Of a stretch of 54,960 nt of DNA, positions 27,919-49,234 are shown piece by piece. Source of the stretch: a virus; the IMG/VR virus record IMGVR_UViG_3300020457_000012, positions 1 through 54,960 of that record, one strand, 5' to 3'. The position numbers and the translations under genes are program-made. Under the pieces are notes generated by a model, which had not been told where the DNA came from, did no database searches, and saw only the letters and a list, made by a program, of their open reading frames with translations. Position 1 is the stretch's first letter. The number at the start of each line of letters is the position of its first letter.

Positions 27919-28142
27919 TATGCAACCTTTATTGTGCCACCATCATTATACAGTGCCCCTGTCTCAAGTCCAGTGGCAGACGTAGGTAAGTCAGTCAAAG
28001 TTATGGTAGAAGCTCTTATCGGTCCAGGATTACGCTCCTGCTCAATAAAAGTCTGTATTGCCCGCACCAAATCCACCAGGTAATTTTGTTCATATTCTGG
28101 CGGTGGTTCAGGTAATCTTGGTGGCGGTTGAGTGCTTGCCAT
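27918..28142 (-). CDS. small Pro-rich virion-module protein, 74 aa
   Basis: The N-terminal 20 residues are Pro-rich (STQPPPRLPEPPPEYEQN); the rest has a helix and a beta-turn end, TGLETGALYNDGG, seen in phage fibre or tail junction peptides. Sits between the nozzle-like gene and the 481-aa gene with one-base overlaps. Role unknown. Confidence 0.6.
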   Translation of the reverse strand: MASTQPPPRLPEPPPEYEQNYLVDLVRAIQTFIEQERNPGPIRASTITLTDLPTSATGLETGALYNDGGTIKVA

Positions 28143-31100
28143 TATCTCCTGCCATCTTGTCTGACATCTACCCTTGGGCTACCCAGCTTCCATTTAGACC
28201 CTATTGCATCTGATTCTACACGAAGTGCAAAGGAACGTCCACGAACTCTTACATCTAATTGATTTGTAAATTTTTCAACAGGAACAGAGGCGGTGCGAAT
28301 CGCCGGAACTGCTGAACTTTGATCAAAATCTGCCCCAGGATAATTACGACCTTTTATTGTAAAAGTTGCCTGTGGCGAAGACAAAGCAACCGAACCATCA
28401 AATGTTAAATCAGGAATTACTCTGCTCACATAAGTGAACCTATCCCCGTCACCAATGTCTATGCCTGCAGATTCAATGAATGAGTTCATGGCGGTGCCGT
28501 CGTCGTCATAGCCAAGCTCATGGTTGTAAAGAAAACCATCTGCCGTGGCTAAGGGAAAGAGCCGTGTGCCGCGATCCAACCACGCTGTTCTAGAAAGTGT
28601 GCCAAAATACCAAACTTTTTCGCTATAATTAAAGGTTACATACTTGTCATTTTCAGAAGCACTTTCAGATGGATAAAACCAAATTACCTCACTAAACTCT
28701 GTATTCACTCCCACCACTACTTTATTTCGTTCCTCAAGGTTGAAATCCAAAAATACTTTGTCGCGAACAGTGCAAGGTAGGGTTTGAGTGCGACCGTCAT
28801 AAACGTAAAAAGTATCAATGCCCATCCAAAAAACAAAATCTTCTGTCGCTGCGGCTGCATTTGGGCTCATAATAGTAATATTACTTGAAATTTGTTGAAG
28901 ACCAAACACGTTTGGCTCCCCTACAAATCTCATTGACGTCAGTGCGGTGTCTGTCCAAACAAGTATTTCACGTTTTGTTTCAATAGCTTGCATAAAAGTA
29001 GATCCTGCACCTAAAGGTAAAGTTCCTGCCGTATTGTTTACAGTCGGGAAAAAATCTGTGGGCAGTTCTCTTGATGAAAATCTTATTAAAAGCGGGTCTT
29101 GTATGCCGTTTCCATTTATGTCAGAAGCACTTGAGCCTATGTCATCTGCGCCAAAAGCAATAACATGACGTTGTGTGTCTGAAACTAGAACTTGTTTGCA
29201 TTTAGTAGGAATGCTTGTTCTTGTTCCCGGTCGAGTGTTTAATGGAATTGCACGAGAGGCCAGTGTGCTTGTCCTGTCCCAATAGTATATTTGGTCATCT
29301 CTTGGATTTAATATTAAATCTTCAACAAAGTTATCGTGAGACCATAATCTTATTTGATTACGAGTAGTAACCCCTCCAGATGCAGCGTCACCCCACCCGG
29401 CAAAGTCATTAATTGGGTCAGCATTACCTTTTGCTAACCGCACAATAGAACCGTCAGCGTGAGTTGCAGCTACAGTCGGGCCAAAAGTATTGACGTTTGA
29501 ACTTGTTTGAGTACCTGCATACCCTCTTGTGCACCCAGTCAAATCATTTGTAACCGCTGTAATTGTAAAGGTTACGTCATTAAGAGGGGTTGCACCACCT
29601 AACGTGTTACCAGTTATTGTAATAGTGTCCCCAACTGCGTAACCACTCCCAGCGGTGGTTGCGGTGACTGACGTGTATGTTGTTGATCCTGCAACAACAG
29701 TAAATTCTGCGCCTGTGCCGCTGCCGCTTGTGCTTGCTTGAGCCTTACCTGTATGCGTGGCTGCTCCAGCCGATCCACCAGAGGCTGTTATAGATCCTAC
29801 TGTTTTGACACCAGTGCTTGATACGCCGCCTACAAGTATAAGCTCATTGTCTATTAAGATTACATCATTGGCAACTATACCAGTTGTGCTAGTCAGTGTA
29901 ATTGTGGTGTCAGAGGAGCTAAGAGTTCCACCTTCGTTCAAGGTTGTTTGTAAAGCACCAGAAGTAACCCCGTAATATTGTCCAGCACCCCAACCTGTAC
30001 CTCCCACGGTTGTATTTAAACCTACGTTTATCTGATATTCTGCTGTGGTGTTGTTTACAAGACTGTCTACTCGAAATGTTTTAGAACTTGCGCCTGCTGC
30101 GCCCGCTCCGAGTGCAAGAAATAAAGAAAAAGTATCACCTACCTTGTACCCACTTCCTCCGTTACTTACAGAGTTTGCTCCACTAAAAGTGTAAAAAAAT
30201 CGAAAAGTAAACGCAGTCGTTGGATTACTTTGTGTTTGAGTGGGAGTAAAGCCTACAGTATTTTGAGTAAAGTTTGCAGTAAAGCCTGTCCCAGGCCCTG
30301 CGTTAGGTTGAGTTAAATCAAAAGTATGTGGTTCAACAGAAGTTATATTTAAAACAAGATCATTCGCTGTTGTTGCCCCGCCAAGACTTGTTCCTGCAAT
30401 TGTTATGTTTTCATTTACGTCGTAACCATCACCGCCATCTGTAACCGCATCTACAGTATATCCGCCAGAACCATCTGTTGTAATGGTAAATTTAGCCCCC
30501 GCACCTGCACCAGACGACGTGCCTGTGACGTTTGTAAACGTAGCACTGCCTGTAGAAGTCCCGGAGGTAACACTCACTGTTTTTACAGGATTACTGTTTT
30601 CTGCAGGGTTTACACCAGATACTTGGTCGGCATTTGTGGGGTCAATGGAAGAAATTGGGCCAATTACACTTGATTGTTGTTGAGATTGAGCGGTAATGGA
30701 CATAGTTTCAATGCTGCTGGACGCTCCGTCTGAAATATCTCCGTCAAGGGAAGTTACAGTAATGGTGAGATTGTTAGTTGGTGTAGAGCCGCCAAGAGAA
30801 GCACCTGGAATGGTTATCGTATCATTTACTGCATAGCCCGTGCCTATCTTTGTCACAGTTACAGAGCCATAACTTGAGCCACCTGCAACCACAGTAAATT
30901 CTGCACCTGTCCCACTACCGCTTGTTGCGCTCTGCGTTTTTTCAGTGTGCGTAGCTGAACCAGCAGAAGTGCCAGCGAAGGTTGTTTGTCTTACTCCAGT
31001 AATATTAGCTGTTGCGGTTAATGTGATCTGATAATTATCTGCATCAAGCACAGCAGTTATTCGATGTTCTGTATTAAGTAAAGCTGCAGTTATATTTGGA

Positions 31101-31510
31101 CCTAAAGATTCTGCTCCAGAAAAAGTTACAAAATCATTTTCTGCTGCACCGTGTCCAGGGTTTGTTACTTTAATAATATTTGAATTATTTGTAGAGGTAA
31201 AAAACACTTCTCCTGGGGAAGTAGTGGTTCTTACAGGAGTAATATCATTAAATCTTTGCCCCTCTTCAATATAATACTTTATTTCGGATCCTAGCCCTAG
31301 AAAGTCGGAGCCGTCTAACGCAATCCAGTTATGAAGACCGCGAACCGTACCCAAGTAAGTGCTGCTACTATACTTGGACCAACCGCCCATTTTTTCAGGG
31401 TAGCCAAACCGAAACCTAATTTTGTCACAATCGCGCCACCCACCTTCATTGGAATATGAAGTAATGTCCGTATTAATACCAGGTTGAAATTGTAACTTTG
31501 TTAACGCCAT
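28142..31510 (-). CDS. tail nozzle/stabilisation-like protein with large repeated beta insert, 1122 aa
   Basis: The N-terminus (FQPGINTDITSYSNEGGW, then DCDKIRFRFGYPEKMGGW) and C-terminal half (LQQISSNITIMSPNAAAA, AWLDRGTRLFPLATADG) match the large nozzle or tail-tube-closing protein of P22-like and marine podoviruses. Residues about 180-700 are an insert with at least three Thr/Gly-rich units, each carrying GTGAEFTVVAG or GAGAKFTI followed by GYAVGDTITI or GYDVNENITI and then LGG. The insert probably forms extra beta domains outside the tube. It follows the fibre array in the operon. Confidence 0.75.
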   Translation of the reverse strand: MALTKLQFQPGINTDITSYSNEGGWRDCDKIRFRFGYPEKMGGWSKYSSSTYLGTVRGLHNWIALDGSDFLGLGSEIKYYIEEGQRFNDITPVRTTTSPGEVFFTSTNNSNIIKVTNPGHGAAENDFVTFSGAESLGPNITAALLNTEHRITAVLDADNYQITLTATANITGVRQTTFAGTSAGSATHTEKTQSATSGSGTGAEFTVVAGGSSYGSVTVTKIGTGYAVNDTITIPGASLGGSTPTNNLTITVTSLDGDISDGASSSIETMSITAQSQQQSSVIGPISSIDPTNADQVSGVNPAENSNPVKTVSVTSGTSTGSATFTNVTGTSSGAGAGAKFTITTDGSGGYTVDAVTDGGDGYDVNENITIAGTSLGGATTANDLVLNITSVEPHTFDLTQPNAGPGTGFTANFTQNTVGFTPTQTQSNPTTAFTFRFFYTFSGANSVSNGGSGYKVGDTFSLFLALGAGAAGASSKTFRVDSLVNNTTAEYQINVGLNTTVGGTGWGAGQYYGVTSGALQTTLNEGGTLSSSDTTITLTSTTGIVANDVILIDNELILVGGVSSTGVKTVGSITASGGSAGAATHTGKAQASTSGSGTGAEFTVVAGSTTYTSVTATTAGSGYAVGDTITITGNTLGGATPLNDVTFTITAVTNDLTGCTRGYAGTQTSSNVNTFGPTVAATHADGSIVRLAKGNADPINDFAGWGDAASGGVTTRNQIRLWSHDNFVEDLILNPRDDQIYYWDRTSTLASRAIPLNTRPGTRTSIPTKCKQVLVSDTQRHVIAFGADDIGSSASDINGNGIQDPLLIRFSSRELPTDFFPTVNNTAGTLPLGAGSTFMQAIETKREILVWTDTALTSMRFVGEPNVFGLQQISSNITIMSPNAAAATEDFVFWMGIDTFYVYDGRTQTLPCTVRDKVFLDFNLEERNKVVVGVNTEFSEVIWFYPSESASENDKYVTFNYSEKVWYFGTLSRTAWLDRGTRLFPLATADGFLYNHELGYDDDGTAMNSFIESAGIDIGDGDRFTYVSRVIPDLTFDGSVALSSPQATFTIKGRNYPGADFDQSSAVPAIRTASVPVEKFTNQLDVRVRGRSFALRVESDAIGSKWKLGSPRVDVRQDGRR
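28557..28576. repeat. dispersed CCGTGGGCCG repeat, diverged copy 4
   Basis: AGAGCCGTGTGCCGCGA, one base different from copy 2 over 16 bases, inside the nozzle-like gene (encodes DRGTRLF on the minus strand). Confidence 0.35.
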
Positions 31511-31517
31511 GTGTTAC

Positions 31518-32243
31518 CTATGTGGGTTGCGGAACATTGTTTAAACTTAATAAATTAATCATAAAACCTTGTTTTCCAATACTTACTGGGGACTTTGCGG
31601 AAAACCTGTACCATCTATGATTTGAATTTATGTTTTGGTAATACAAACTTACCACAGATGGGTTATTGGGGTAAGCTGCTCCTGTATAAGATACGTTACT
31701 GATGCTTCCATTAGTATTCCAATTTATTCGCCAATAGAGAGTATTTCCAAGACTTCCGTGGTAAATACACCTGAATTTTAATACCTCATCGGTTACTGTT
31801 GAACTATCGGTACCTCCGTACAAAACTACATTGTCTGTCAAAGCGGAAACATCCTCATTTTGACCAACTCCAAAAGAAAGCGTGGTTATAAATCCTGTTC
31901 CTGCGCGAAACACGGGTTGATAATAACGCACATTATTACTGGTATTTCCTGAATAAGCGTAGGGTGTACCCGTCACTGAATCTGAAGCCGCTAATCCTAC
32001 TCCAGAAAAACTTGCTGTAGGATCATACCGCATACTAAATTTAATGCTTCTGTTTGAAGTTCCGCCTGAACTTCTAAAATTACTAAAACTCAATGGCCCG
32101 CTTGTGGGTACATTCACTGTTGTTGCATTAGTGGGTACAATACCTGCTCCCTTGTAGTACTCTCCCAATCCATCCGGCTGAGTACCACCGAATACAGTTC
32201 TTATGTCCGACATGTTTATTGCGCCAGAATCAGGTATAGGCAT
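31518..32243 (-). CDS. tail fibre-type protein, 241 aa
   Basis: Starts MPIPDSGAINMSDIRTVFGG and has SGPLSFSNFRSS at about residues 50-60, the N-terminal signature common to many short phage fibre proteins. The rest is beta-rich with no repeats. It ends the array of fibre genes, 7 bases before the nozzle-like gene. Likely a virion surface or receptor-contact protein. Confidence 0.65.
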   Translation of the reverse strand: MPIPDSGAINMSDIRTVFGGTQPDGLGEYYKGAGIVPTNATTVNVPTSGPLSFSNFRSSGGTSNRSIKFSMRYDPTASFSGVGLAASDSVTGTPYAYSGNTSNNVRYYQPVFRAGTGFITTLSFGVGQNEDVSALTDNVVLYGGTDSSTVTDEVLKFRCIYHGSLGNTLYWRINWNTNGSISNVSYTGAAYPNNPSVVSLYYQNINSNHRWYRFSAKSPVSIGKQGFMINLLSLNNVPQPT

Positions 32244-32261
32244 AGTTTTATACTCCTATAT

Positions 32262-33080
32262 TTATGGTAAACTACCAAACGCAGTTATATCACCTTCAGA
32301 AGTAATCGCTCCATCTGTTGCAATTTTAGCTACGGCGGTTGTTGTGCCGCCTGTTGTGTAGCTGAAAACTAATTCATTATTTACAACGCTCAGCGTCCAA
32401 TCGCCTAGATTAAAAGTACTGCCGCTAATTGGCACGGTAGAAAAACTTAAAGTTCCAGAACCATCTGTTTGTAGATACTGACCGTTTGTTCCATCAGCGG
32501 TTGGGTAACTTAGACCATCAAGAACAACTTTACCACTGCCGTTTGGGGTAATGGCTATATTGCGGTTTGACGTACTAACAATAGAGTGTGTTTGAACATC
32601 TAAGTTAGCTCCTAATTGTGGAGATGAATCATTCACTAAATCAGTTGGAGGGGTTAAGTTTTTGAAAATACCTGAAGTAGCCCCATTTTTCGTTCCATCG
32701 CCCGTTACTGCTTGGGTAGCACCTGATGCGATTTCAACACCAGTGCTGGCACTGTAAGAAACGCCTTTATACACAACTCGACAGGCAGAATCGGTGTCAT
32801 TCTTAACAGTAAAATGTTTTTCTTGGTTAATAGGGGTGACGCGCATTTCGAAGGTAGAGCCGGGGGTTCCTGTTAAAATTATAACCGTATGCTGCCCATC
32901 AGAAACCGCCCCATCTGTTGTCGTTAAATCAAAGTCTCCAGTTACCGCTTTTTCAAGCTGACCATGCAATCCCGCGTCAATAATATCAAAATTACGATTG
33001 ACGGTTGTTCCCCAAGAACCTGCCTGTTCTCCAGAGCCCGGCTGTTCTATGCCTGTATTATTTGTGTAGGTACTTGCCAT
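32262..33080 (-). CDS. fibre-type protein, 272 aa
   Basis: The N-terminus (GIEQPGSGEQAGSWGTTVNRNFDIID) is the attachment-like module of T4-type and marine phage fibres. The middle has beta strands, and LQTDGSGTLSFS around residue 205 is a frequent fibre motif. Structural, beta-rich, no chaperone domain. Directly downstream of the 244-aa repeat protein. Confidence 0.68.
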   Translation of the reverse strand: MASTYTNNTGIEQPGSGEQAGSWGTTVNRNFDIIDAGLHGQLEKAVTGDFDLTTTDGAVSDGQHTVIILTGTPGSTFEMRVTPINQEKHFTVKNDTDSACRVVYKGVSYSASTGVEIASGATQAVTGDGTKNGATSGIFKNLTPPTDLVNDSSPQLGANLDVQTHSIVSTSNRNIAITPNGSGKVVLDGLSYPTADGTNGQYLQTDGSGTLSFSTVPISGSTFNLGDWTLSVVNNELVFSYTTGGTTTAVAKIATDGAITSEGDITAFGSLP

Positions 33081-33815
33081 TTATACCACCTTATTTGTCC
33101 ATGTTTCCGACGACGTTCCTGCGTTTATCTGAGTCCAGGTATCGCCAGTGTGTGTGACTTGTGTCCAGTTTTCTGGTGTGCTACCCGCGTCAATTTGCTC
33201 CCAGAGTATATCACCATTTGCTGTTATCACAAATACACTGTTGATTTCTATCGGTCCTTCGCCTGCTCCAGGGTAAATTATGATAAGTCCGCCTAGAGTC
33301 GATAGGTTAAATTGTGAATCCATATCGACTGTAGCAAGAGTCAACAAACCTCCTAATGGGTCTACCTCAAACTCAAAATCTTGTGTGCTTATAAGATCTA
33401 ACAACACATTAGATGCTGTGGTCTGTGTGAAGTTTGCGTCTAACTGAGCAACACCCGCAGCTATCAAGGTTTGTGTAGTAGTCTGTGTGAAGTTTGCATC
33501 TATTGCCGCAACCCCAGAAGCATTAAAGTTTGCAGCCGTGGTTTGATCAAACTGAGCATCTAGTGAAGCAGAGGTTATAGCAAAACGAACACCATTTGTA
33601 GTTTGAGTAAAGTCTGAAGATATATCTATTTCAGCAACAAGCGTTCCTGAAGCTGCTGCAAGCTTAGAGAAAAAAGCATTTACATCCATACTACCGCTGA
33701 ATATGGCGGATAAGTCCGTTGACTGTGTGAAGTTTGCGTCGAGCGTTTGACTTCCAAAAAGAACAATGCCGTCAGTAGCTATACTGTTTTCAGCTATTGC
33801 GTGAGAACCAAACAT
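33081..33815 (-). CDS. fibre-type protein with DANFTQTT repeats, 244 aa
   Basis: Contains at least six imperfect repeats of about 20-25 residues with core DANFTQT, DAQFDQT, SSDFTQT or similar, spaced across residues 25-150. A Trp-rich end carries ENWTQVTH, DTWTQINAG and ETWTNK, a small repeat of its own. Repetition suggests a beta-solenoid or stalk. Stop-start overlap with the 183-aa gene. Confidence 0.62.
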   Translation of the reverse strand: MFGSHAIAENSIATDGIVLFGSQTLDANFTQSTDLSAIFSGSMDVNAFFSKLAAASGTLVAEIDISSDFTQTTNGVRFAITSASLDAQFDQTTAANFNASGVAAIDANFTQTTTQTLIAAGVAQLDANFTQTTASNVLLDLISTQDFEFEVDPLGGLLTLATVDMDSQFNLSTLGGLIIIYPGAGEGPIEINSVFVITANGDILWEQIDAGSTPENWTQVTHTGDTWTQINAGTSSETWTNKVV

Positions 33816-34366
33816 TATCCTGCAATCTCCATGACTGTAATTGACGACACACCTCTTGCCCCATAGTCGTTATCACTGTCATTCTTTGTCCTATTTAAAT
33901 AAAATGTTCCGTTATAAGTAGAACCTAAAGTGCCTTGTATCTTGTAAGTCGTAGCTGATGTTGTCGCAGGAGAATCTAAAAACATTCCACTAAGTTCTCC
34001 CATTTCAAAATTATATGGGGTTGCCTGTGACCGAAGCACGCTAGTTGACCCAAACCTATTTCCAGAACTATTTCCCACCGAAATTGCAGTGCTACCCCTT
34101 ACTAGTCGAATATGTGCTGTTGCAGTAGTACTTTGTGAAACATTACAAGAAAACATAACAAATATTTTGTTGCTTGATGAGGTTGGTGTTATGCTTACAG
34201 ACATACCACTTATATCAACAAAATTGTCTGTATTTGATGAAGCAAAGCTAGTTACGTCAGTTTTAGTCGTACTAACTACCTGAAGAACAGAGCCAGCAGG
34301 CTGTTTAAGAGACGGAATTGTAGTGCTTGTGCCTAATAAATTAGCAAGATTACGGGCGTTACTCAT
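33815..34366 (-). CDS. short fibre/decoration protein, C-terminal module Y, 183 aa
   Basis: After a short leader containing PAGSVLQVVSTTKTD, the C-terminal 130 residues (ISGMSVSITPTSSSNKIFV to GVSSITVMEIAG) are a beta-sandwich module. The same module, recognisable by SITPxSSSxK, FLDSP, NRTxxD and RGVSxxTVMEI, ends the 181-aa protein at 35779 and, more distantly, the 156-aa protein at 37602. The PAGSVLQVV leader is shared with the 156-aa protein. One member of the shuffled array. Confidence 0.65.
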   Translation of the reverse strand: MSNARNLANLLGTSTTIPSLKQPAGSVLQVVSTTKTDVTSFASSNTDNFVDISGMSVSITPTSSSNKIFVMFSCNVSQSTTATAHIRLVRGSTAISVGNSSGNRFGSTSVLRSQATPYNFEMGELSGMFLDSPATTSATTYKIQGTLGSTYNGTFYLNRTKNDSDNDYGARGVSSITVMEIAG

Positions 34367-34369
34367 AGC

Positions 34370-34768
34370 TTACTCCGGCTTATCAGGCCACACCACATCG
34401 TCAAGTGATGAGTATGTTTTGGTTATGTCGCGCAATGCCTGACGATAGGCTGTGCGTTCTGTGGACATAGTAAGGTCAGATGATGCCCACCAATCTGTTT
34501 CAGCGATACGGCGATTACGCTCTTCGCGTAACAAGTTTAATGGTTCAGCGTTATTTAAATTAGTTAGCTCTCTATCTACTAATGCCCAAGTGATACCCTT
34601 GTCTTGCCAAACCTTAGGGTCACTTGATAACATCGCAGAACCATTTTTATCTACGCCTGTTACAAGTCGAAAGGCTGCATCAAAAGATTGTGCGCTCGTA
34701 GGCTCACCGTACAGTACGAACTGGCAGTCTGGGTCTAGTGCTAAAATTGCTTCTGATACTGTTGCCAT
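34370..34768 (-). CDS. tail fibre assembly-like protein, 132 aa
   Basis: Not beta-rich like its neighbours. The C-terminal half LREERNRRIAETDWWASSDL, then TAYRQALRDIT, matches the short helical motif found at the ends of phage tail fibre assembly/chaperone-type proteins. The N-terminal half (ILALDPDCQFVLYGEPTSAQSFD) is predicted to be alpha/beta. In the middle of the fibre array it is a candidate chaperone for the neighbouring fibres. Confidence 0.62.
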   Translation of the reverse strand: MATVSEAILALDPDCQFVLYGEPTSAQSFDAAFRLVTGVDKNGSAMLSSDPKVWQDKGITWALVDRELTNLNNAEPLNLLREERNRRIAETDWWASSDLTMSTERTAYRQALRDITKTYSSLDDVVWPDKPE

Positions 34769-34771
34769 AAT

Positions 34772-35281
34772 TTAACCTACAAACCTAAATGTTGCCCAAT
34801 TATAGGGAACATGACTAGAATCAACCGTGCTTGAGTAAAAATTTTTAGTGTGTTCAGGCTTAAAATACAGTTCATCGTTTGCAGAGCATTCTATGGTAAA
34901 AGAAGCCCCCGCAATTGCACGGGCGTTAGTGTAAAATCGAGTTAGTTTTGCCTCAGTGCCGCCGCTATTTCTTACAGGGAATATTCCATAGGCATCACTG
35001 TTGTTTTCAGTTAAAGAAGCAAGTTCAACTTGGTATAACCCCGCCACAGGACAGGTAAATTTATAGGTAGAAGTGTTAAAATGATTGCCATTATTCACAA
35101 CAGCGACAGAAAAATCTAATATGGCATTAGCTGCTTTTGATACATAGGAGTTTGAAGCGGCAAAAGTAACAAAAGCGTAGGGAATTACAGGTCTTGAAAC
35201 CCTGCCACTGCTGTCAATCGACAGCGCGGTGTTCGAGTTCGTTGGGTCTTGGATTTCGGTGACTTTTAATATGCTAGTCAT
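34772..35281 (-). CDS. short fibre/decoration protein, N-module A plus C1q-like end, 169 aa
   Basis: N-terminal module A: TSILKVTEIQDPTNSNTALSIDSSGRV. The C-terminal 110 residues (FNTSTYKFTCPVAGLYQVELASL and on) have the strand pattern of a C1q/TNF-like beta-sandwich, which usually trimerises. The same two-part build recurs at 35291, 38940 and 39447. Likely exposed on fibre tips or head surface. Confidence 0.66.
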   Translation of the reverse strand: MTSILKVTEIQDPTNSNTALSIDSSGRVSRPVIPYAFVTFAASNSYVSKAANAILDFSVAVVNNGNHFNTSTYKFTCPVAGLYQVELASLTENNSDAYGIFPVRNSGGTEAKLTRFYTNARAIAGASFTIECSANDELYFKPEHTKNFYSSTVDSSHVPYNWATFRFVG

Positions 35282-35290
35282 CTTGTTCTC

Positions 35291-35782
35291 TTATCCTATC
35301 AAATACCCAGAAAATATTGTATCAGCGGCTGCCGCAAAGTAATCAGCAGCTCCGCCAGAAGTCACAGTAAGCTCATCCCCTGCGGCAAGAGCATGTATTG
35401 CTGAAAAGGATATATTGCCATAACCTGTTGAAGATACTTCTTCAAAGTATCCTCTTTGGATTCTTGTGCCGTTTTTCTTAAGCTCAATATTTATGCTTTC
35501 ATTTCCACTCGTATCATCACGAACAACTCCAAAATGCACTGCAATAAAATAGTTGCCGCTTACAGGAACAACATATTTATAGTTTGTTGTATCAAAAGCA
35601 TTTCCCACATTTATTGTAGTATTGTCGTATGGAATAGGACTTGTGGTTTGATAATTGCCGTCATCAGCGTAAGCGTGAAAAGCTGGTGTTGCTGGTTTGA
35701 ACACACGCCCACTGCTATCAATGGACAGCGCGGCTGTGCCGCTGGAGTTCTGGATGTTATCAACTTTGACTATGCTAGTCAT
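35291..35782 (-). CDS. short fibre/decoration protein, N-module A plus C1q-like end, 163 aa
   Basis: Module A (TSIVKVDNIQNSSGTAALSIDSSGRV) followed by a C1q-like domain (FDTTNYKYVVPVSGNYFIAVHFG to FSGYLIG). The N-terminal 28 residues differ from the 34772 paralogue at only a few positions, while the C-terminal halves are far apart. The gene overlaps its upstream neighbour by ATGA. Confidence 0.66.
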   Translation of the reverse strand: MTSIVKVDNIQNSSGTAALSIDSSGRVFKPATPAFHAYADDGNYQTTSPIPYDNTTINVGNAFDTTNYKYVVPVSGNYFIAVHFGVVRDDTSGNESINIELKKNGTRIQRGYFEEVSSTGYGNISFSAIHALAAGDELTVTSGGAADYFAAAADTIFSGYLIG

Positions 35783-36324
35783 CCGCCAATCTCCATAACA
35801 GTAAGTGTTGATACACCGCGAGCATCATAACCACCTGAATTATTTAAATCTCTATGGGTTCTATTAATATGGCATGAGTGACTTTGATCTGCTCTTGTAG
35901 CAAATTGAACTTTATAAGTAACAGTAGATGCAGTATTAGGTGAATCAAGATGTTGGGCTGAAAGAAATAACATTTGATAAGCACTTGAGCCTATAATATT
36001 AGAAGAAAAACTAAAGCTACTTGTACTTCTAGTAAATGAAGCCGATCCATCAGGAAGATGAATAGCTGTTCCGTTTCTTACAAATCTACAAAAATTAAAA
36101 TACGAGTCGCTACTTGCTGCTATACAGCAAGACAAAAGAAATTTAGAGCTAGATGATTTTGGTGTTATGCTTATGCTCAGATTTGTAATATCTGTAAATG
36201 AACTACTAGTTGAAGTTTGAGTTCCAGTAAAATTTACAGATTGAATATTAATAATATGACCCGGAATTTCCACCCCGTTGTTTGTGGTCTTCTCATTTAT
36301 TGTATCTACAAATAATGTTGACAT
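35779..36324 (-). CDS. short fibre/decoration protein, variant N-module plus module Y, 181 aa
   Basis: The N-terminus STLFVDTINEKTTNNGVEIPG is a diverged form of module A. The C-terminus is module Y (SITPKSSSSKFLL, LDSPNTASTVTYK, NRTHRDL, ARGVSTLTVMEIGG), as in the 183-aa protein. Different N-terminus and same C-terminus is direct evidence of module exchange within the array. Confidence 0.65.
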   Translation of the reverse strand: MSTLFVDTINEKTTNNGVEIPGHIINIQSVNFTGTQTSTSSSFTDITNLSISITPKSSSSKFLLSCCIAASSDSYFNFCRFVRNGTAIHLPDGSASFTRSTSSFSFSSNIIGSSAYQMLFLSAQHLDSPNTASTVTYKVQFATRADQSHSCHINRTHRDLNNSGGYDARGVSTLTVMEIGG

Positions 36325-36332
36325 GACTTAGC

Positions 36333-36866
36333 CTATTTAATCTTAGTTATTTGAACTTGAGTAAAAATAGAACCATCTAGCCCAGAAACTTGACTGTTGG
36401 TTGCTACCCCAAATCCATATTGAGAAAAAGTACTTTCAGTAAAATGTCTTACTTTATAAGTTGTATTTGATGTTGGGGTCACTACAGCATAACCTGTTGA
36501 AACAGAATGACCGTTATAAGTGCTAACCGCGTAAACACTTGCGCCACGCGAAACTACAGCAGAGTTTGTAACATCATAAAGCTGTGCTTGATTTCTATTA
36601 ACTTTATATGCTGGACAACTATAAATAATACTGTAAGTTCCAGCACCTAAAATAAATTGATTAGATGATATTGTTACAATGTTGTCTGGGTCATGTAGTT
36701 TTGTGTTTAAATCTCTATCATTTACTGTGTTTGCCGTAGACGCCCCACCATCTGCATTATACGCTTTTTTGTCAGCTATAATAGCTACAGAATAACTATG
36801 CACATCTACCTTTGCAGCGGTTCCCGACGCAGTTTTTATCTGGTCTACATTTAGTATCGAAGCCAT
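36333..36866 (-). CDS. short fibre/decoration protein, N-module A plus module X, 177 aa
   Basis: Module A-like start (ASILNVDQIKTASGTAAKV). The C-terminal 125 residues are module X: LHDPDNIVTISSNQFILGAG, then AQLYDVTNSAVV and IFTQVQITKIK. The same module X ends the 284-aa protein at 38082, which has an unrelated N-terminus. The shared stretch DPDNIVTISSNQFILGAGTY is identical between the two. Confidence 0.66.
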   Translation of the reverse strand: MASILNVDQIKTASGTAAKVDVHSYSVAIIADKKAYNADGGASTANTVNDRDLNTKLHDPDNIVTISSNQFILGAGTYSIIYSCPAYKVNRNQAQLYDVTNSAVVSRGASVYAVSTYNGHSVSTGYAVVTPTSNTTYKVRHFTESTFSQYGFGVATNSQVSGLDGSIFTQVQITKIK

Positions 36867-36873
36867 CTGCGCC

Positions 36874-37602
36874 TCACAGTATTGTTAGATTACCACTTAC
36901 GGTAATTGTAGTTGATGAATCTATGGTCAGCGGACCAATAGCTAATGCGTTCTTGGTTGATGCTATTGTAGTATCTTCGTCTACTGTTTGTCCATTGGTT
37001 CGGAATACAGCCGTATCAACCGTGGTGTTTGTAGTCTGAAATTGTGTTGCTGTAATCTCAGCCGCAAATGTACCGCCGCTAGACTTGCTGACTGTATCAG
37101 TCACAGTAAAAGCACGGAAGGCGCGGATGACTAACTCATCGTTTACCGCTGCACCAGAACCAAGTGTGATCGTATCACCATTGCTGGCGGTAAAGTCTGA
37201 ACTGTCAAGATGCACACCGTTTAGGTATACGTCCACATCGTTACCAGAGAAGGCCAGTATTGCACCGTTAGCATCTGCACCTGTAAACGCAGTCTGACTT
37301 GCTGTTGCTGTGTACTTGAACAACTGCATACCAAAGCTGGTAGGCTGATCTACAGCACGACCAAAGTAGCGAACCTGTATTACATCGCCATTAGCTGGCG
37401 CAGAAGAGAAGGTTAGTGTCGTGCCTTGCGCTGTATACGCCTTGCCTATCCCTGGCTCTTGAATGACGTTACCAATAACAACCATAATAGCTTCTCCACT
37501 GACAACGCTTTGCGCCAGCGTAAACGCAGTTGCGCTTCCAGTGCCTGTAAAGGTCTGAAAGCTGATGTCACCTACGTTTGGGTCAATACCTATATATGCC
37601 AT
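36874..37602 (-). CDS. fibre protein with N-module B, 242 aa
   Basis: Module B: MAYIGIDPNVGDISFQTFTG, GSATAFTLAQSV, GNVIQEPGIGKAYTAQGTTL, a beta domain common at the N-terminus of T7-like and marine phage tail fibres. A second such beta unit follows (KYTATASQTAFTGADANG). The last 60 residues (ATQFQTTNTTVDT to VSGNLTIL) resemble the end of the 70-aa protein at 39979. It overlaps the next gene by one base. Confidence 0.67.
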   Translation of the reverse strand: MAYIGIDPNVGDISFQTFTGTGSATAFTLAQSVVSGEAIMVVIGNVIQEPGIGKAYTAQGTTLTFSSAPANGDVIQVRYFGRAVDQPTSFGMQLFKYTATASQTAFTGADANGAILAFSGNDVDVYLNGVHLDSSDFTASNGDTITLGSGAAVNDELVIRAFRAFTVTDTVSKSSGGTFAAEITATQFQTTNTTVDTAVFRTNGQTVDEDTTIASTKNALAIGPLTIDSSTTITVSGNLTIL

Positions 37603-38072
37603 TAGCCTGCAATCTCTTTAAGTATTATTATTTGGGAAGAGCCACCACTGCCAGTTCCCCAACCATGAAAAACAGAGTTTGAACCATTCATGCTCTTGAA
37701 CCTAAGTCTATAAGTTGTTGCGCTAGTTGTAGACGGGCTGTCTAAAAAATTAATTACCATTGGTTGCCAACCACCAGTTTGTTGGTTTGCTTGAAAAATT
37801 TCACCTGTATTTAAATCTACACCAGAACCTCCACTTATGGTTCTGTTTAGGCCGTACAATCCTATGTCACCACTTGAAGAGGTGTAAGACTGAGTTGAAA
37901 TTGTTACCAATATCTTGCTTGAAGTTGAAGAAGGTGTGATGGTTGCCACTAAACTTGTGTCGCTAAGAGATGTGTTAGCTGTACTCTCTTGGGTATTTGT
38001 CAAAACCTGTTGAACCACTTGCAACACAGAGCCAGCGGGTAAAGAGCTTGTTTGTATTTTGCTTAATGGCAT
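37602..38072 (-). CDS. short fibre/decoration protein, PAGSVLQVV leader plus diverged module Y, 156 aa
   Basis: Leader SSLPAGSVLQVVQQVL is shared with the 183-aa protein at 33815. The C-terminal part shows a diverged module Y (TITPSSTSSKILVTIS, FLDSPSTTSATTYRLRFK, IIILKEIAG). Same build as 33815, far lower identity outside the motifs. Structural, role by context. Confidence 0.63.
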   Translation of the reverse strand: MPLSKIQTSSLPAGSVLQVVQQVLTNTQESTANTSLSDTSLVATITPSSTSSKILVTISTQSYTSSSGDIGLYGLNRTISGGSGVDLNTGEIFQANQQTGGWQPMVINFLDSPSTTSATTYRLRFKSMNGSNSVFHGWGTGSGGSSQIIILKEIAG

Positions 38073-38081
38073 TTCAAACTC

Positions 38082-38936
38082 CTATCCCATCTTTGTAATC
38101 TTGACTTGAGTATAAATACTATCCACGCCAGAGAGTGATGCGTTCACTCCCAGCCCGTTGCTGCTTTTTCCTGATTCTATATAATGAACAATCTTGTAGG
38201 TAGTGTTTGAAGTTATAACGACTCTGGCATAACCAAAACTAGAACCATATCCACCATTAGTGCCGTGTGAATATTCCATAGAGCCATATTGAACTGATGC
38301 ACTATTTGTTACATCGTAGAGTTGAGCAATGTGCCTATCTCCAAAATAGGAGGGTGCAGAAAATTCTATAATATACGTTCCTGCACCTAATATAAATTGG
38401 TTAGATGATATTGTGACAATGTTATCAGGGTCGAATAGTTTAGTGTTTAAGTCCCTGTTGTTTCCGCCACTGCCCCATGATATTGATGTACCCCCGCTTG
38501 TACTGTTAGATTTTACATCAGCTATAACTGCCACAGAGATCGGGGTCTGAGCCGCCCCGCTTGCTAACTTATCAGATGTTACAGCATCATCAGCTATCTT
38601 CGCTGTAGTCACCGCACTAGCCGCCAGCTTCGCAGTTGTAATAGAAAGATCTGGTGCTTCCAGACGTGTAGTTACTTCTGCCTGACCACGGTAGATAACG
38701 TACACATTGCCTGTACCAGAAGGCGGAGCTTCATCAAACGTCAGGGTAGTTCCTGTGGCTGTGTATGATTTACCAGATCCAGGCTCCTGTTGCACGTTGC
38801 CAACAAATACTTCTAGCTCCTCACCAGTGTTCACGGCGCGGTTAAGTGTGAACGCGGTCGCCGAACCTGTGCCGTTGAAGGATTGGCTTGTCGTCTTTGT
38901 TAACTGTTTATTTGGTTGTGCGCCTATGTATGCCAT
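38082..38936 (-). CDS. fibre protein, N-module B plus module X, 284 aa
   Basis: Module B (MAYIGAQPNKQLTKTTSQSF, GSATAFTLNRAV, NVQQEPGSGKSYTATGTTLTF) covers residues 1-90. A linker with repeated TTAKIADDAVTSDKLASGAA follows, the trimeric-stalk repeat typical of phage fibres. Module X ends it (DPDNIVTISSNQFILGAG, YTQVKITKMG). Combines the N-terminus of the 36874 protein with the C-terminus of the 36333 protein. Confidence 0.7.
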   Translation of the reverse strand: MAYIGAQPNKQLTKTTSQSFNGTGSATAFTLNRAVNTGEELEVFVGNVQQEPGSGKSYTATGTTLTFDEAPPSGTGNVYVIYRGQAEVTTRLEAPDLSITTAKLAASAVTTAKIADDAVTSDKLASGAAQTPISVAVIADVKSNSTSGGTSISWGSGGNNRDLNTKLFDPDNIVTISSNQFILGAGTYIIEFSAPSYFGDRHIAQLYDVTNSASVQYGSMEYSHGTNGGYGSSFGYARVVITSNTTYKIVHYIESGKSSNGLGVNASLSGVDSIYTQVKITKMG

Positions 38937-38939
38937 TTC

Positions 38940-39443
38940 TTAGCCCACCAAATATCCGCTAAACTGACCATAGGCTTCAAAGTCCCAGCTTGTGTCACCC
39001 CCAACATACACTAGATTTGTGATTGCCACATTTGCGGCAAGTTCAAATATCCCTGAATATGTCATTGAGTGATGTGGACCTTCATTAGATTCAATAACAT
39101 AAGCCTGAGCATTAGTTGCGACAGTGCCGTCAAAAGCTATGTTTGTAATTATGTAAATTCCTGAATTAGCGTGATCTATTCTCATGTTATAGTTAATGTG
39201 ATATAGGCCAGCGACAGGCGTTGTATATGCGTAAGTGCTGGTATTAAAATTCCCGTCATTTATGATGGCGGTATTCCACGGACAGGTTATATACGCATTT
39301 TGTGTGGTTTGTGCGGCTGTCCCTGTTCTACCCGCAGACCATACTGGCCTAGCAGGAGTAAGAACATGCCCACTACTATCAATGGTTATAGCATCTGTGC
39401 CGTTGGTGTGTTGTATGGTCTGTACGCCTAGTTCTGATGCCAT
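38940..39443 (-). CDS. short fibre/decoration protein, N-module A plus C1q-like end, 167 aa
   Basis: Module A (ASELGVQTIQHTNGTDAITIDSSGHVLTP) then a C1q-like sandwich (FNTSTYAYTTPVAGLYHINYNM to FSGYLVG). The FNTSTYxYTxPVAGLYxxxY start of the domain matches 34772 and the FSGYLVG end matches 35291. Array member. Confidence 0.66.
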   Translation of the reverse strand: MASELGVQTIQHTNGTDAITIDSSGHVLTPARPVWSAGRTGTAAQTTQNAYITCPWNTAIINDGNFNTSTYAYTTPVAGLYHINYNMRIDHANSGIYIITNIAFDGTVATNAQAYVIESNEGPHHSMTYSGIFELAANVAITNLVYVGGDTSWDFEAYGQFSGYLVG

Positions 39444-39446
39444 AAC

Positions 39447-39986
39447 TTACCCCACCTTAAACATAGATACATATGTATCATTGTTAATACTGACATTGGA
39501 ATCCCCAGAGTGTTGATAAAACCAAGCCAAAAACAATCCAGAAGTTAAATACAGCATTCCTGTTGCGGTAAACGCATCGTATGACGTATTACCACTGCCT
39601 TGAGTTAATGTTCTAGCATACGTAATTCCAGTGCTGGTTCCTGAAGAATCAGTTGATTCAAAATTCATATAATAATAAGAGCCAGCGAAACTATCCAGTC
39701 TGCCGTCAATACCATAGAAGTAATAACCAGTTGCAGGGATAGTTATTACACCAGTGCTAATGTTTAAAACAGTGCCTCCCGCACCATCAGTATTAAACCC
39801 TCCTGCACCGGGAACTGCATATTGACTAAACCTTGTTCCACCCGATGTAATAGTTTGAGTTGGGTTTATCTTAGCGCGAAAACCAACTGGACTACCTTGA
39901 CTTAATCGACTGTTGCTATCGATAGTTAACGCAGACGCAGCAGAGGTCTTGCCATGTATTTCATCTACAAGAATACGACTAGACAA
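39447..39986 (-). CDS. short fibre/decoration protein, N-module A plus C1q-like end, 179 aa
   Basis: Module A variant (SSRILVDEIHGKTSAASALTIDSNSRL) and a C1q-like beta sandwich starting around STGVITIPATGYYFYGID. It ends YVSMFKVG, as C1q-like ends in phages often do. It starts the A-module series in transcription order, overlapping the 70-aa gene by 8 bases. Confidence 0.65.
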   Translation of the reverse strand: MSSRILVDEIHGKTSAASALTIDSNSRLSQGSPVGFRAKINPTQTITSGGTRFSQYAVPGAGGFNTDGAGGTVLNISTGVITIPATGYYFYGIDGRLDSFAGSYYYMNFESTDSSGTSTGITYARTLTQGSGNTSYDAFTATGMLYLTSGLFLAWFYQHSGDSNVSINNDTYVSMFKVG

Positions 39987-40191
39987 CGGTTAGCACTCCA
40001 TTAACAGTGATTGTAGCGGAGATGGTTATCGGCCCAAACGCCCCTGCGTTTTCTGTAGAGGCCACAGTCAGGTCGCTAGTAATGCTAGTAGCGTTTGTGC
40101 GAAACGGGTTAGTGGTGGTTGATGCTGCAATATCTACGTTAGAAACACCGCCGTCTTTTATCTGATTTGTATTAATCGTGCTAAGTGCCAT
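39979..40191 (-). CDS. small fibre-module protein, 70 aa
   Basis: MALSTINTNQIKDGGVSNVDIAASTT is a short fibre N-terminal module. The C-terminal part (NATSITSDLTVASTENAGAFGPITI, split by a weak turn, then TVNGVLTVV) resembles the end of the 242-aa protein at 36874 (STKNALAIGPLTI, TVSGNLTIL). It looks like a minimal fibre unit, N-module and C-strand without a receptor domain. Confidence 0.62.
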   Translation of the reverse strand: MALSTINTNQIKDGGVSNVDIAASTTTNPFRTNATSITSDLTVASTENAGAFGPITISATITVNGVLTVV

Positions 40192-40520
40192 TAGGTAATC
40201 TCCAATACAGACAGTGTAACATCTGCTGCTGACGCTTGACTTGCTGTTATTCTCAAAATGTCGGAAGCATTCATCACAATTTTTTGATCGCCGCCAACCG
40301 CCACTAATGACGAGCCAACAGGGACAATAGCTGACTTTACAATGTGTACATTGTCGCCATCGTTATTGATTAGCTGTACATTTACTGTGATTGAAACCGC
40401 CAATATGTTAGCTATGTTCAAGCCGATTATTGTTGTTTCAGTCGCGCTGGGGCAGGTGTAGACATCGGCGTTTCCAGTGCCTACCGCCGTATCTGTGAAA
40501 GTCTTAAACGCATTTGCCAT
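40191..40520 (-). CDS. small virion decoration-type protein, 109 aa
   Basis: Beta-rich protein with a recurrent marine phage pattern: VYTCPSATETTIIGLNIANI, VTVNVQLIN and VGSSLVAVGGDQKIV. Probably a baseplate or fibre-associated small subunit. Lies between two fibre-type genes with tight spacing. No further function can be read. Confidence 0.6.
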   Translation of the reverse strand: MANAFKTFTDTAVGTGNADVYTCPSATETTIIGLNIANILAVSITVNVQLINNDGDNVHIVKSAIVPVGSSLVAVGGDQKIVMNASDILRITASQASAADVTLSVLEIT

Positions 40521-40524
40521 GTCA

Positions 40525-40905
40525 CTATCCTAACGCTATTGCGAACGCCAACGCATTCGGGTCTTGCTCTGTAAAGTTCTGCGCTACATTACTTGCATTA
40601 TTAAATATCATCTTCTCTGCTGGCAACGTACAGAAGATGGTGCGGGTGCCTGATGTCCAACTAACAGCGGCATCAGAATTACTAGACTGCAAAATTGTGG
40701 TACGGGCCAAGGTTGTACCAGATGCAGTATAGGTGCCGATACCTATTTCAAAGTCAGTTCCGTCTGTACAGCAATAGTATGTAGTGTTTGTATTACCTAT
40801 CTGGCTGAAAGCCTCAAAACCACCTACAGCACCAGCAAGCGTATAAGTGCCTGTGCCAGTGGTAGTTGTAGTTTCTTTTATGCGGTCTTTCAGAACAAGG
40901 GCCAT
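40525..40905 (-). CDS. fibre/baseplate-type protein, 126 aa
   Basis: The segment KETTTTTGTGTYTLAGAV, then FEIGIGTYTASGTTLARTT, is a beta domain found at the start of many marine phage fibres and neck fibres. It contains tandem Cys (YYCC) in the middle. Ends with an ANALAFAIALG-like hydrophobic tip. Part of the fibre module. Confidence 0.65.
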   Translation of the reverse strand: MALVLKDRIKETTTTTGTGTYTLAGAVGGFEAFSQIGNTNTTYYCCTDGTDFEIGIGTYTASGTTLARTTILQSSNSDAAVSWTSGTRTIFCTLPAEKMIFNNASNVAQNFTEQDPNALAFAIALG

Positions 40906-41345
40906 TACTTCAATTCAATAGTTAAGTTGTTTGAGTTAATACGAAAAACATCACCTGTAGCGATTGTTTTTGAAGCATCTAACGCACCAATAAACAATAT
41001 GTTTCCACCACTTGAGGCATCTGCAATAAAGGCATGTGTAACTACATTTGTTGTTCCTGTGGATGCCGGAAACTCAAAGTTGTTAGTGTTTTTTATTGTC
41101 TGCTGATCTGTGCTAGAACTTGCTAAAGTCCAATCTGCCGCAACAATTTGCTTTCTTGTATAACTACCAAAAGTGGCTTCAGTCAAAGAGCCAGCTTCTG
41201 CGTCAGAAACAGCGGTTGCTAGTCCAACATAAATGCTGTCTCCTGGTGAAGCAAAAGTTGTACCACTAATAGCGGCATTGTTTTTAAAAATAAAATTGAG
41301 CAGTCGATGCTCAAGATACGTGGTTGCTGCGTTACTCGTTGCCAT
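40905..41345 (-). CDS. tail fibre-type protein, 146 aa
   Basis: The pattern ATTYLEHRLLNFIFKNN, SIYVGLATAVSDAEAGSL, YTRKQIVAADWT, ending NNLTIELK, is the common short phage tail-fibre protein family (SPG..YVGL, then Y.R..I). Beta-rich. Role as virion surface component by family and context. Confidence 0.68.
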   Translation of the reverse strand: MATSNAATTYLEHRLLNFIFKNNAAISGTTFASPGDSIYVGLATAVSDAEAGSLTEATFGSYTRKQIVAADWTLASSSTDQQTIKNTNNFEFPASTGTTNVVTHAFIADASSGGNILFIGALDASKTIATGDVFRINSNNLTIELK

Positions 41346-41354
41346 TTGTTACTC

Positions 41355-42002
41355 CTAAGTCCTTGGCCTATTAGGTAAACCCCTACGATTCGCATCTGAG
41401 TTTTCTCTAGCTTCCGCCAAGTCTTTCAAACGCTGAATCTCCTGCGCGAACCTTTGTTCGTACAGTTGCATCATATCCTGCTCACCTTTCATGTAAGTAT
41501 ACGCTTCCACGAGTGAGCCGTAAAGAAGAGCGTTAGGGGCGTTTTCGCTCAACCATGATGTTCCCGAATCCGCTCCAGCAGTTATGCTGGCGGGTCTGTA
41601 GTAATAATGTAGTTCAACCGTGTAGTTACTGTCTGGTGTTGGACTTACAATAAAATTATCTACGTCATAGATACTGTAATATTTTGGTCTAGCGTTTGCG
41701 CCTGTGTCTATAGAATACTGTTGAACAAAGTTAACATCTTTAAAATCTAAAAATACTTTATTTGATGCTGTTGTTATTTGCAAAGAAAACGGGGCAAGAT
41801 AATCGGTTGGGCAACTTAGAAAAGGATCGTTATTACTTAAAGCAGAGGTCGCATTTTTACGAAACAACTCAAGATCAACAAGTGTAAAGATACGATCCTC
41901 TGCGCCACGAATAAACACAGGCAGATTTGTGACGAAGGATGTTTCGGTATTTTCCGAAAAGTCTTGAATAGCTTGTTTGAGTTGTGCGTATGTAAAAGAC
42001 AT
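41355..42002 (-). CDS. adaptor/tail-tube-type structural protein, 215 aa
   Basis: The N-terminal helix (TYAQLKQAIQDFSENTETSF) and the centre PKYYSIYDVDNFIVSPTPDS, then VELHYYYRP, match a family of head-tail joining or tail-tube proteins in marine podoviruses and other phages. The C-terminal helix is long and charged (LYEQRFAQEIQRLKDLAE). Located just before the fibre array and after the first adaptor (43253) in transcription order. Confidence 0.65.
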   Translation of the reverse strand: MSFTYAQLKQAIQDFSENTETSFVTNLPVFIRGAEDRIFTLVDLELFRKNATSALSNNDPFLSCPTDYLAPFSLQITTASNKVFLDFKDVNFVQQYSIDTGANARPKYYSIYDVDNFIVSPTPDSNYTVELHYYYRPASITAGADSGTSWLSENAPNALLYGSLVEAYTYMKGEQDMMQLYEQRFAQEIQRLKDLAEARENSDANRRGLPNRPRT

Positions 42003-42014
42003 GTTACCTGCTCA

Positions 42015-42665: not shown

Positions 42666-43253
42666 TTAACCCTCGTCAAAAGTCTTAGTTGCCGAATCGA
42701 GTGTAACATTTGTAGCATCAAAGGTCGATGCTGTTGTTGGTGGTGTTGGTGCAGCAGTCCCCGGCCCAACGGTCGCATTGTCACCGCCGCCTCGTGTACC
42801 ACCGACTGTTGCTGTTTCTCCTCCCGTGATGGTGATTGTATAGGAGTCATCGTCAATAACCGTGATCGTATACCCGGTAGCCTTTTCAAGACTAGCTTCT
42901 GAAAACCCATCAAATGCCTCCACTTTACGAAAAACAACAGCATCTGATGTGCTGCGACCATGAGAAGGTTCAAATACTGTAACTACAGCGGAACCGGAAG
43001 AACCAGACTGAAATGCATTTTTTATTAAAAGTCTTTGACCAGCTACTTCTGTGCTTGTGTCTGGTCTAGGTTCAAAAAGTGCTTGTGGATCTGAACCAGG
43101 AGAAATAGGTTCTAACTGTGGATGTTTTGGTTCGTACTCATCTGGACCAACTTTAAGACCATTCCATTCGGTTATCATTTCAGACAAACGATAACGAAAG
43201 CCAGAGCGATCTGATATTCCGTAAGCATGTTTTCCAGATGCGTATCTAGCCAT
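42666..43253 (-). CDS. conserved virion-module protein, 195 aa
   Basis: Residues 1-60 (RYASGKHAYGISDRSGFRYRLSE, then MITEWNGLKVGPDEYEPKHP) are a strongly conserved signature of an uncharacterised marine phage structural family. A beta region carries TGYTITVIDDDSYTITI, and the tail is Thr/Gly/Pro-rich and disordered. Sits between adaptor and cupredoxin-like genes. Role unknown. Confidence 0.65.
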   Translation of the reverse strand: MARYASGKHAYGISDRSGFRYRLSEMITEWNGLKVGPDEYEPKHPQLEPISPGSDPQALFEPRPDTSTEVAGQRLLIKNAFQSGSSGSAVVTVFEPSHGRSTSDAVVFRKVEAFDGFSEASLEKATGYTITVIDDDSYTITITGGETATVGGTRGGGDNATVGPGTAAPTPPTTASTFDATNVTLDSATKTFDEG

Positions 43254-43921
43254 TAGTTTACCCGAAGATAAGAAATACTAGGCTGTAGCTTCAACGGTAC
43301 TCTATCTTCGTCCTCATCCGCTGCACGTTGGAACTCTTCTTCATACACAGACTTCAAAAGTTGTACCCGTTCTGGTGCTCTTTTAATTGATAAATAATAC
43401 GCCAGCCCCGCAACCATACAAGGCAAGAATCGAAATGGTGCATCAGTTGTGTTGGCTAATGTATCAACGTCTTCTATGCGCTTTACATAATAGTACACAA
43501 GCGTATCTGTAGAATTTTCCGGCGTAGCCCACAAAGTAATCTGTGGTGTGCTTTGTCTATTATAGTAATATTGACTTGGTCTGCCTTGAGTTGTTTTATT
43601 AGGTATGCCTAAATATTCCCCACGAGACATCCGGGTCAACTCTTGATCCACGCCACTACGACGTAACGAAACTTCAAGTAGATCCGTGTAATTTGAGTCT
43701 AAGGTATATGTTGCGGTTCCCTGTGTTAGAGCCTGCGTTGCCTGCTTTACTGTCCATAAATTAAGACCACGATTAGCCCAATCAGCAAACATCAAGTTCA
43801 TGGAACGACGTGCCGTTTTAGCATCATATCCAGTGCGAACCTCAAGTCCGCACCGTTCATATGCTTCTTCAATTATCTCAGCTACGTCGAGGTCGAAGTC
43901 TGTTGAACCTGAAGTTGCCAT
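43253..43921 (-). CDS. head-tail adaptor (P22 gp4-like)
   Basis: A 222-aa protein. IADIIEEAYERCG-like start (DLDVAEIIEEAYERCGLE), RSMNLMFADWANRGLNLW, a middle beta part (LLEVSLRRSG, IPNKTTQGRPSQYYYNRQ) and FLPCMVAGLAYYLSIKR, then EEEFQRAADEDE. This is the full pattern of the gp4-type adaptor that links portal to tail machine. About the normal length. One-base overlap with the next gene. Confidence 0.8.
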   Translation of the reverse strand: MATSGSTDFDLDVAEIIEEAYERCGLEVRTGYDAKTARRSMNLMFADWANRGLNLWTVKQATQALTQGTATYTLDSNYTDLLEVSLRRSGVDQELTRMSRGEYLGIPNKTTQGRPSQYYYNRQSTPQITLWATPENSTDTLVYYYVKRIEDVDTLANTTDAPFRFLPCMVAGLAYYLSIKRAPERVQLLKSVYEEEFQRAADEDEDRVPLKLQPSISYLRVN

Positions 43922-43923
43922 AA

Positions 43924-44598: not shown

Positions 44599-44611
44599 GT
44601 TTTACACACCT

Positions 44612-44866: not shown

Positions 44867-44876
44867 TTTAATCTCC

Positions 44877-45331: not shown

Positions 45332-45341
45332 ATTCTTCCCA

Positions 45342-46779: not shown

Positions 46780-46783
46780 AGGA

Positions 46784-47059: not shown

Positions 47060-47071
47060 ATCAGCCTCCTA

Positions 47072-47554: not shown

Positions 47555-47623
47555 GTACGTCTCCTGTCTTGGCTAGTGTCAACCCCCCGATGGAGTTGTC
47601 AGGATAATTAAGTATACAATAAA

Positions 47624-47649: not shown

Positions 47650-47668
47650 GAAAAAGATGTTTTCAACT

Positions 47669-48580: not shown

Positions 48581-48592
48581 TACCTACACTCC

Positions 48593-49207: not shown

Positions 49208-49234
49208 TGCTTACTCCTTATTAAATCAAGAGGG

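Follow-up and report, generated by a model that had tools for sequence, protein, structure and literature searches.

The window analysed here is the whole 54,960-nucleotide (nt) stretch of IMG/VR virus record IMGVR_UViG_3300020457_000012, which carries on its minus strand, at positions 31518-41345, an array of 18 closely packed genes, named below by their lower coordinate. With a probability of roughly 0.8, we read this array as a fibre rack: short fibres that bind receptors are carried on a podovirus-type tail, and their tips are swapped slot-wise between phages by recombination. The preliminary description of this DNA, made from the sequence alone, had counted about fourteen consecutive genes with shared parts; the stretch is longer than that, and about eleven of its genes are modular, combining a small set of N- and C-modules with changing partners. 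The observation of a modular array is itself confirmed.

Relatives were collected in three scans of IMG/VR, anchored on the gene upstream of the array (80 loci), on 32262 (79 loci) and on the central gene 36874 (80 loci), giving about 240 loci (labelled L), across which N- and C-terminal fragments were clustered independently. For the slot analysis, we took 69 distinct loci anchored on 36874, which is 240-244 amino acids (aa) long in these loci, together with the next three genes (slots +1, +2 and +3); the locus pairs compared are non-independent observations. The N-terminal headers tracked position: the expected header class was found in 58 of 62 loci at +2 and 51 of 56 at +3, and at +1 the slot-1 header was present in 46 loci, a further 15 being without that gene and starting with the slot-2 header. 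Mean header identity was 0.65, 0.77 and 0.84 within slots 1, 2 and 3, respectively, and 0.18-0.41 between slots. Tips, on the other hand, were homologous in 28%, 59% and 16% of pairs within slots 1, 2 and 3, and in 17% of pairs that set slot 1 against slot 3; one tip family was represented 40 times in slot 3 and 35 times in slot 1, and the Y tip stood at slot 2 in 58 of 59 cases. The N-modules mark ordered slots, the tip content varies freely, slot by slot, and slots +1 and +3 use a common tip pool. In the preliminary description, N-modules had been pictured as sockets and C-modules as exchangeable tips; socket and tip behaviour is indeed seen, but the N-modules, which form a plug of 25-30 residues in type A and about 85-125 in type B, are not freely interchangeable, each being fixed to one position.

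The limits of the exchanged segments can be mapped. Between slot-3 genes with unrelated tips, identity was 0.28 (chance) at -60, 0.69 directly before the start codon, 0.7-0.9 in the header and 0.29 by +84. Among phages at least 95% identical in 36874, the tip was the same in 71 slot comparisons and entirely different, although the header was at least 80% identical, in 69 (summed over six positions). Near-identical phages held unrelated tips on headers 85-100% identical, and in the cluster of L105, L208, L209 and L213 (anchor 97-99% identical) same and different slots alternate. Local alignments between such close phages mostly stop at +64 to +82 and restart, relative to the following start codon, at -12 to -16, a pattern repeated along the slots. 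From these breakpoint positions, it follows that the exchanged unit begins where a header ends and reaches as far as the ribosome-binding site in front of the following gene. The same tip was also found on different headers, being shared by L018 slot +1 and L112 slot +3 (97% in nt), by L212 slot -1 and L223 slot +2 (97%), and by L217 slot -1 and L215 slot +2 (91%); one C1q-like tip occurs, at 82-90% identity, on N-module B (L090), at slot +1 (L092 and L184) and at slot +3 (L190), with 83% between L090 and L092 and 87% between L092 and L190. Apparent cross-slot tips due to shifts in gene count (e.g., W/L171) were excluded from these moves. The replacement of whole tips between near-identical phages and the presence of one tip on different headers bear out the earlier proposal of recombinational module switching, and neither uniform divergence along the proteins nor identical synteny in relatives was found when checked.

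The relatives share a common plan, in which 40905, 40525 and 40191 lead, a modular row is arranged around 36874, and the chaperone and trailing frame genes come last; gene number and some inserts vary. The conserved frame comprises the first three genes, the last three (33081, 32262 and 31518) and the chaperone gene 34370. Compared at the DNA level with L008, L010, L016 and L018, the headers are colinear and mostly 80-98% identical, and most slots are without detectable similarity beyond the header; the header of 33815, for example, is 85-90% identical in nt in L008, L010 and L018, and the tips there lack DNA similarity. Two genes of relatives are chimeras of window parts: L016_16250 combines the header of 34772 (88%) with the tip of 38940 (88% over 417 nt), and L010_5821 combines the header of 36333 (94% over 34 nt) with the tip of 39447 (80% over 450 nt). 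The genes of the array, with expectation values (E) where available, are as follows:

40905..41345, minus: first gene of the array, homologous to gp80, the fibre I protein of podophage GP4 (PF23140 Gp80, E 2.8e-30; PDB 8jou chain a, E 1.9e-11).
40525..40905, minus: frame gene 2, 126 aa, in the same order in nearly all relatives.
40191..40520, minus: frame gene 3, 109 aa, in the same order in nearly all relatives.
39979..40191, minus: 70-aa gene with a C-terminus like that of 36874 (56% over 43 aa, E 4e-9).
39447..39986, minus: N-module A header and C1q-like tip, with an inferred TTG start (BLASTP, tip-family profile).
38940..39443, minus: N-module A header and C1q-like tip (BLASTP, Pfam below cut-off, tip-family profile).
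38082..38936, minus: slot -2, N-module B, linker and tip X (BLASTP; tip predicted to have a C1q/TNF fold).
37602..38072, minus: slot -1, MPLSKI header and tip Y (BLASTP, profile, slot headers).
36874..37602, minus: invariant central gene, 242 aa, with N-module B at its start; the comparison anchor (84-100% identity across 80 loci).
36333..36866, minus: slot +1 header (MASILNVDQI..) and tip X (BLASTP, slot comparison).
35779..36324, minus: slot +2 header (MSTLFVDTINEKT..) and tip Y (slot comparison; predicted TNF-like lectin fold).
35291..35782, minus: extra N-module A gene with C1q tip (Pfam C1q, E 2.4e-11), missing here in L008, L016 and L018.
34772..35281, minus: slot +3 header (MTSILKVTEIQDPTNSN..) and C1q tip (Pfam C1q, E 8.6e-9; slot comparison).
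34370..34768, minus: tail fibre assembly chaperone within the array (PF16778 Phage_tail_APC, E 1.1e-11; phrog_4912 tail fiber assembly, E 9e-16).
33815..34366, minus: own header (MSNARNLANLLG..) and tip Y (BLASTP, tip-family profile).
33081..33815, minus: trailing frame gene, position kept in relatives.
32262..33080, minus: trailing frame gene, position kept in relatives.
31518..32243, minus: trailing frame gene, position kept in several relatives.

All-against-all BLASTP of the array proteins recovered the module sharing that had been described: C-module X is common to 36333 and 38082 (57% over 168 aa, E 6e-49), N-module B to 36874 and 38082 (56% over 86 aa, E 6e-23), and C-module Y links 33815 with 35779 (E 1e-14), 33815 with 37602 (E 1e-9) and 35779 with 37602 (E 5e-7). 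N-module A together with a C1q-like tip unites 34772, 35291 and 38940 (E 4e-14 to 1e-16); the N-module A assigned to 36333 and 39447 was retrieved as a short match alone (61% over 18 aa, E 0.013; 43% over 30 aa, E 0.001). The four C1q-like ends also held, since 34772 (36.1 bits) and 35291 (44.4 bits) exceed the Pfam C1q (PF00386) cut-off of 23.7 bits, 38940 (20.0 bits) lies below it, and 39447 is reached through the tip-family profile (E 2.3e-18). Two features had been overlooked earlier: 36874 and 39979 have a C-module in common, and 35779 and 37602 each carry an N-module specific to their slot. In relatives, slot -2 retains N-module B, and its C-termini differ. The two copies of X in the window are only 57% identical, and no recent within-genome shuffling is visible; because the paired copies inside the window are old, the recent variation lies between phages. 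The middle domain of 36874 (residues 95-169) matches tail fibres of T7-like pelagiphages (HTVC011P, 62%), and on account of this resemblance the central gene may be an old fibre piece turned hub. At the conserved C-terminus of Y tips (MEIGG/MEIAG; 35779-35800 and 33815-33835), the encoding ATGGAGATTG.. at the same time contains a GGAG ribosome-binding site for the next, nearly overlapping gene.

For every kind of tip (C1q-like, X or Y), either a match or a prediction points to a lectin-like jelly roll of the C1q/TNF type. The C1q tips align in sequence with C1q structures. The model of Y (predicted local distance difference test score, pLDDT, 81) resembles Pgp3 of chlamydiae as well as two TNF-like lectins, PLTL and BC2L-C, with template modelling (TM) scores for these lectins of 0.46-0.57 by query and 0.58-0.74 by target for the predicted monomer, and the Y profile matches the C-terminus of orf22, a solved 658-residue protein (PDB 9efk, E 3.5e-24). 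The model of X with N-module B (pLDDT 72, predicted TM score, pTM, 0.52) matches collagen X NC1, C1q and C1ql1, with target TM scores of 0.65-0.75, and TNF-family domains; a sequence search of the PDB with the corresponding profile returned only chance antibody matches. The slot +2 header modelled alone gave low confidence (pLDDT 57), as might be expected of a plug that becomes ordered upon binding.

Several points weigh against a rack of exchangeable fibres: (i) all evidence comes from metagenomic contigs; (ii) the fold models are monomers, and that of X is modest (pTM 0.52); (iii) no cultured phage with a full-length match to array genes was found in our searches; and (iv) the near-identical header islands exceed the assembler k-mer and could yield false joins, an objection tempered by the cross-slot moves at 82-97% and by alleles present in several contigs, which are hard to explain in this way. 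Part of the apparent shuffling could, then, be chimeric metagenome assembly at conserved headers, since the 80- to 95-base-pair (bp) islands are 94-99% identical between close relatives and the window itself changes source. Positions 1-41367 are 99.8-99.9% identical to IMG/VR 3300020408_000007 where covered (30004-34537 being uncovered), and 41313-54958 are 99.9% identical to 3300020293_000022; past the junction, the former drops to 67-91% similarity where alignable, and the latter ends there. The switch at 41313-41367 is an exact 55-bp overlap, equal to a common assembler k-mer. The record may be chimeric, with two phages meeting where the array starts, through either natural recombination at the array edge or chimeric assembly, the latter being the more suspect. 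The array, however, is not an assembly artefact of this record, because its DNA is ~100% identical in two further IMG/VR contigs, L019 (which covers the window from 33068 upward) and L020, and our conclusions hold despite the possible chimera because the array lies in the first part, which these contigs confirm. Moreover, where one slot +2 header bears alternative tips, these come from separate contigs (L209 and L213 versus L105 and L208), and k-mer joins at identical headers cannot produce moved tips 82-97% identical on clearly different headers. That part of the shuffling stems from misassembly is, in our view, unlikely. The record probably falls short of the full genome by about 5 kb, since 3300020293_000022 (L085:13647-19057) runs about 5.4 kb beyond the right end of the window, with sequence absent from it, and neither terminase large subunit nor portal was recognised among the open reading frames of the window.

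By its homologies, this is putatively where the fibres of a podovirus-type tail are encoded. Gene 40905, at the head of the array, belongs to the PF23140 family (105.7 bits against a cut-off of 27), 42015 has a T4 gp9/10-like N-terminal domain, and the array is flanked by two further genes:

43253..43921, minus: upstream flank, tail adaptor homologue (tblastn: Roseobacter phage CRP-901/902 'tail adaptor', 43%; HTVC023P, 48%; DSL-LC04 'adaptor protein', 49%).
28142..31510, minus: downstream flank, nozzle-like virion structural protein (phrog_3287 virion structural protein, E 1e-64; weakly, nozzle gp16 8zkk, E 0.16, and 9nwi_Y, E 6e-8).

The array has two marks of a modular tail fibre system: it lies in a tail module together with a fibre chaperone and a tail adaptor, and its proteins join an N-terminal anchor that is conserved to a C-terminal domain that varies. 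That the proteins are instead head decorations or secreted adhesins seems improbable to us: PHROGs files some flanking families under 'head and packaging', but the genes around them code for a tail adaptor, a homologue of GP4 fibre I and a chaperone of tail fibre assembly, and several array proteins match tail fibre families.

If the array is a fibre rack with exchangeable tips, each modular gene would encode a slot-specific N-terminal plug and one C-terminal C1q/TNF jelly-roll knob. The plug, by which the header presumably attaches to the tail, would be retained for its fit to a particular tail site, and the knob, probably a receptor-binding trimer, would touch the host surface and be exchanged. 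That one header can bear many tips would follow if the knobs share one trimer-forming superfamily with the same base geometry. Related phages would recombine in co-infected cells, with homology supplied by the islands of ribosome-binding site plus header (about 80-95 bp), by the linkers between header and knob and by the conserved frame genes, and would thereby replace the segment from the header end to the next gene's ribosome-binding site; the outcome would be a population in which every slot holds its own tip allele. Identity at third codon positions is 0.49-0.60 in the headers and 0.46-0.60 in the central gene, and as the two are equal, the header appears to be kept for the protein and not as a DNA site. 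With no extra synonymous-site conservation, a role of the headers as special DNA recombination sites is unsupported.

A dedicated switch (a diversity-generating retroelement, site-specific invertase or shufflon) that shuffles tips within one genome is brought to mind by a cassette array with repeated modules, which recalls shufflons. In the record, itself probably ~5 kb short, no profile match to reverse transcriptase (RVT_1), resolvase or tyrosine integrase (Phage_integrase) was found, and the array could be classed neither as a diversity-generating retroelement nor as an invertase/shufflon system; its inverted repeats are weak, all its genes lie on one strand, and third-codon identity gives no conserved DNA-level site. 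Programmed switching, very improbable in our view, is rejected on the lack of these enzymes, the lack of extra synonymous conservation and the weak inverted repeats, and the exchange, on the first two grounds, looks like ordinary inter-phage recombination. Gene duplication and divergence in one lineage without recombination, leaving unequally conserved N- and C-terminal halves, would suit the age of the copies in the window (X, 57%) and the generally slower evolution of the N-terminal anchors of phage fibres relative to tips, but tips 82-97% identical in DNA on different headers speak against it, and the unrelated tips on 85-100% identical headers of near-identical phages refute it as the sole cause, so that it, too, merits hardly any credence.

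Motif-mediated swapping of adhesins is known in T-even phages. Their distal tail fibre locus, reportedly treated by Tetart, Desplats and Krisch in 1998, is said to hold one adhesin at one locus, whereas many slots swap independently here, each with its own header, and the knobs belong to one fold superfamily. Podophage GP4 is said, by the title of Zheng et al. 2023 (PDB 8jou), to have a tail with three fibre types; 40905 is homologous to its fibre I gp80, but about a dozen modular genes follow this homologue here. The cultured marine podophages HTVC023P, HTVC027P and CRP-901 have a homologous tail adaptor with fibre or tail genes downstream, but these are few and long (for instance, one putative fibre of 951 aa in CRP-901) in place of a row of single-knob genes. 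In pelagiphage genomes, C1q-domain and tail-fibre genes are, according to the accessible part of a study of marine metaviromic islands, variable and poorly recruiting (PMC3909814); that part deals with under-recruiting genes and domains, whereas an ordered array, slot headers and header-to-header breakpoints are the features seen here. Similarly, the accessible part of a report on cryoconite phages describes near-identical core genomes with shuffled receptor-binding gene variants, C1q included, ascribed to recombination (PMC7468147), but with single genes per position, the multi-slot rack being the feature here. Within a literature coverage that was incomplete, we found no description of an ordered rack of many slots that has a header for each slot, draws same-fold knobs from a common pool and exchanges them slot by slot.

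Modularity and swapping of fibres are well known, as a rule for a single fibre gene or a small number of them. In the present group of uncultured marine phages, which is widespread, the attachment apparatus appears to be divided among ordered, short genes, each addressed to a slot, with breakpoints that are clean and can be mapped. The receptors sampled per population, the rate of tip movement and the allowed header-tip pairs are thus directly countable from metagenomes, and the array supplies compact header-knob units for binding assays. More tentatively, attachment may be combinatorial at the level of the population, each virion having fixed, distinct, slot-addressed sockets with trimeric knobs of the same superfamily that are reassorted slot by slot; host-range phenotypes would then arise from the combination of alleles over about ten loci and not from mutation of one fibre.

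Two minor observations concern other genes. In several relatives (L067:8545-9830, L066, L040, L051 and L053), a family of 340-370 aa (phrog_4492 tail fibre) is present, often followed by a 60-aa gene (n6/c6), which is perhaps a tip-specific chaperone travelling with the phrog_4492 gene. Elsewhere in the window, the product of 12414-13967 resembles primases and contains an archaeo-eukaryotic primase domain of the TOTE type (PF22548, E 1.9e-12).

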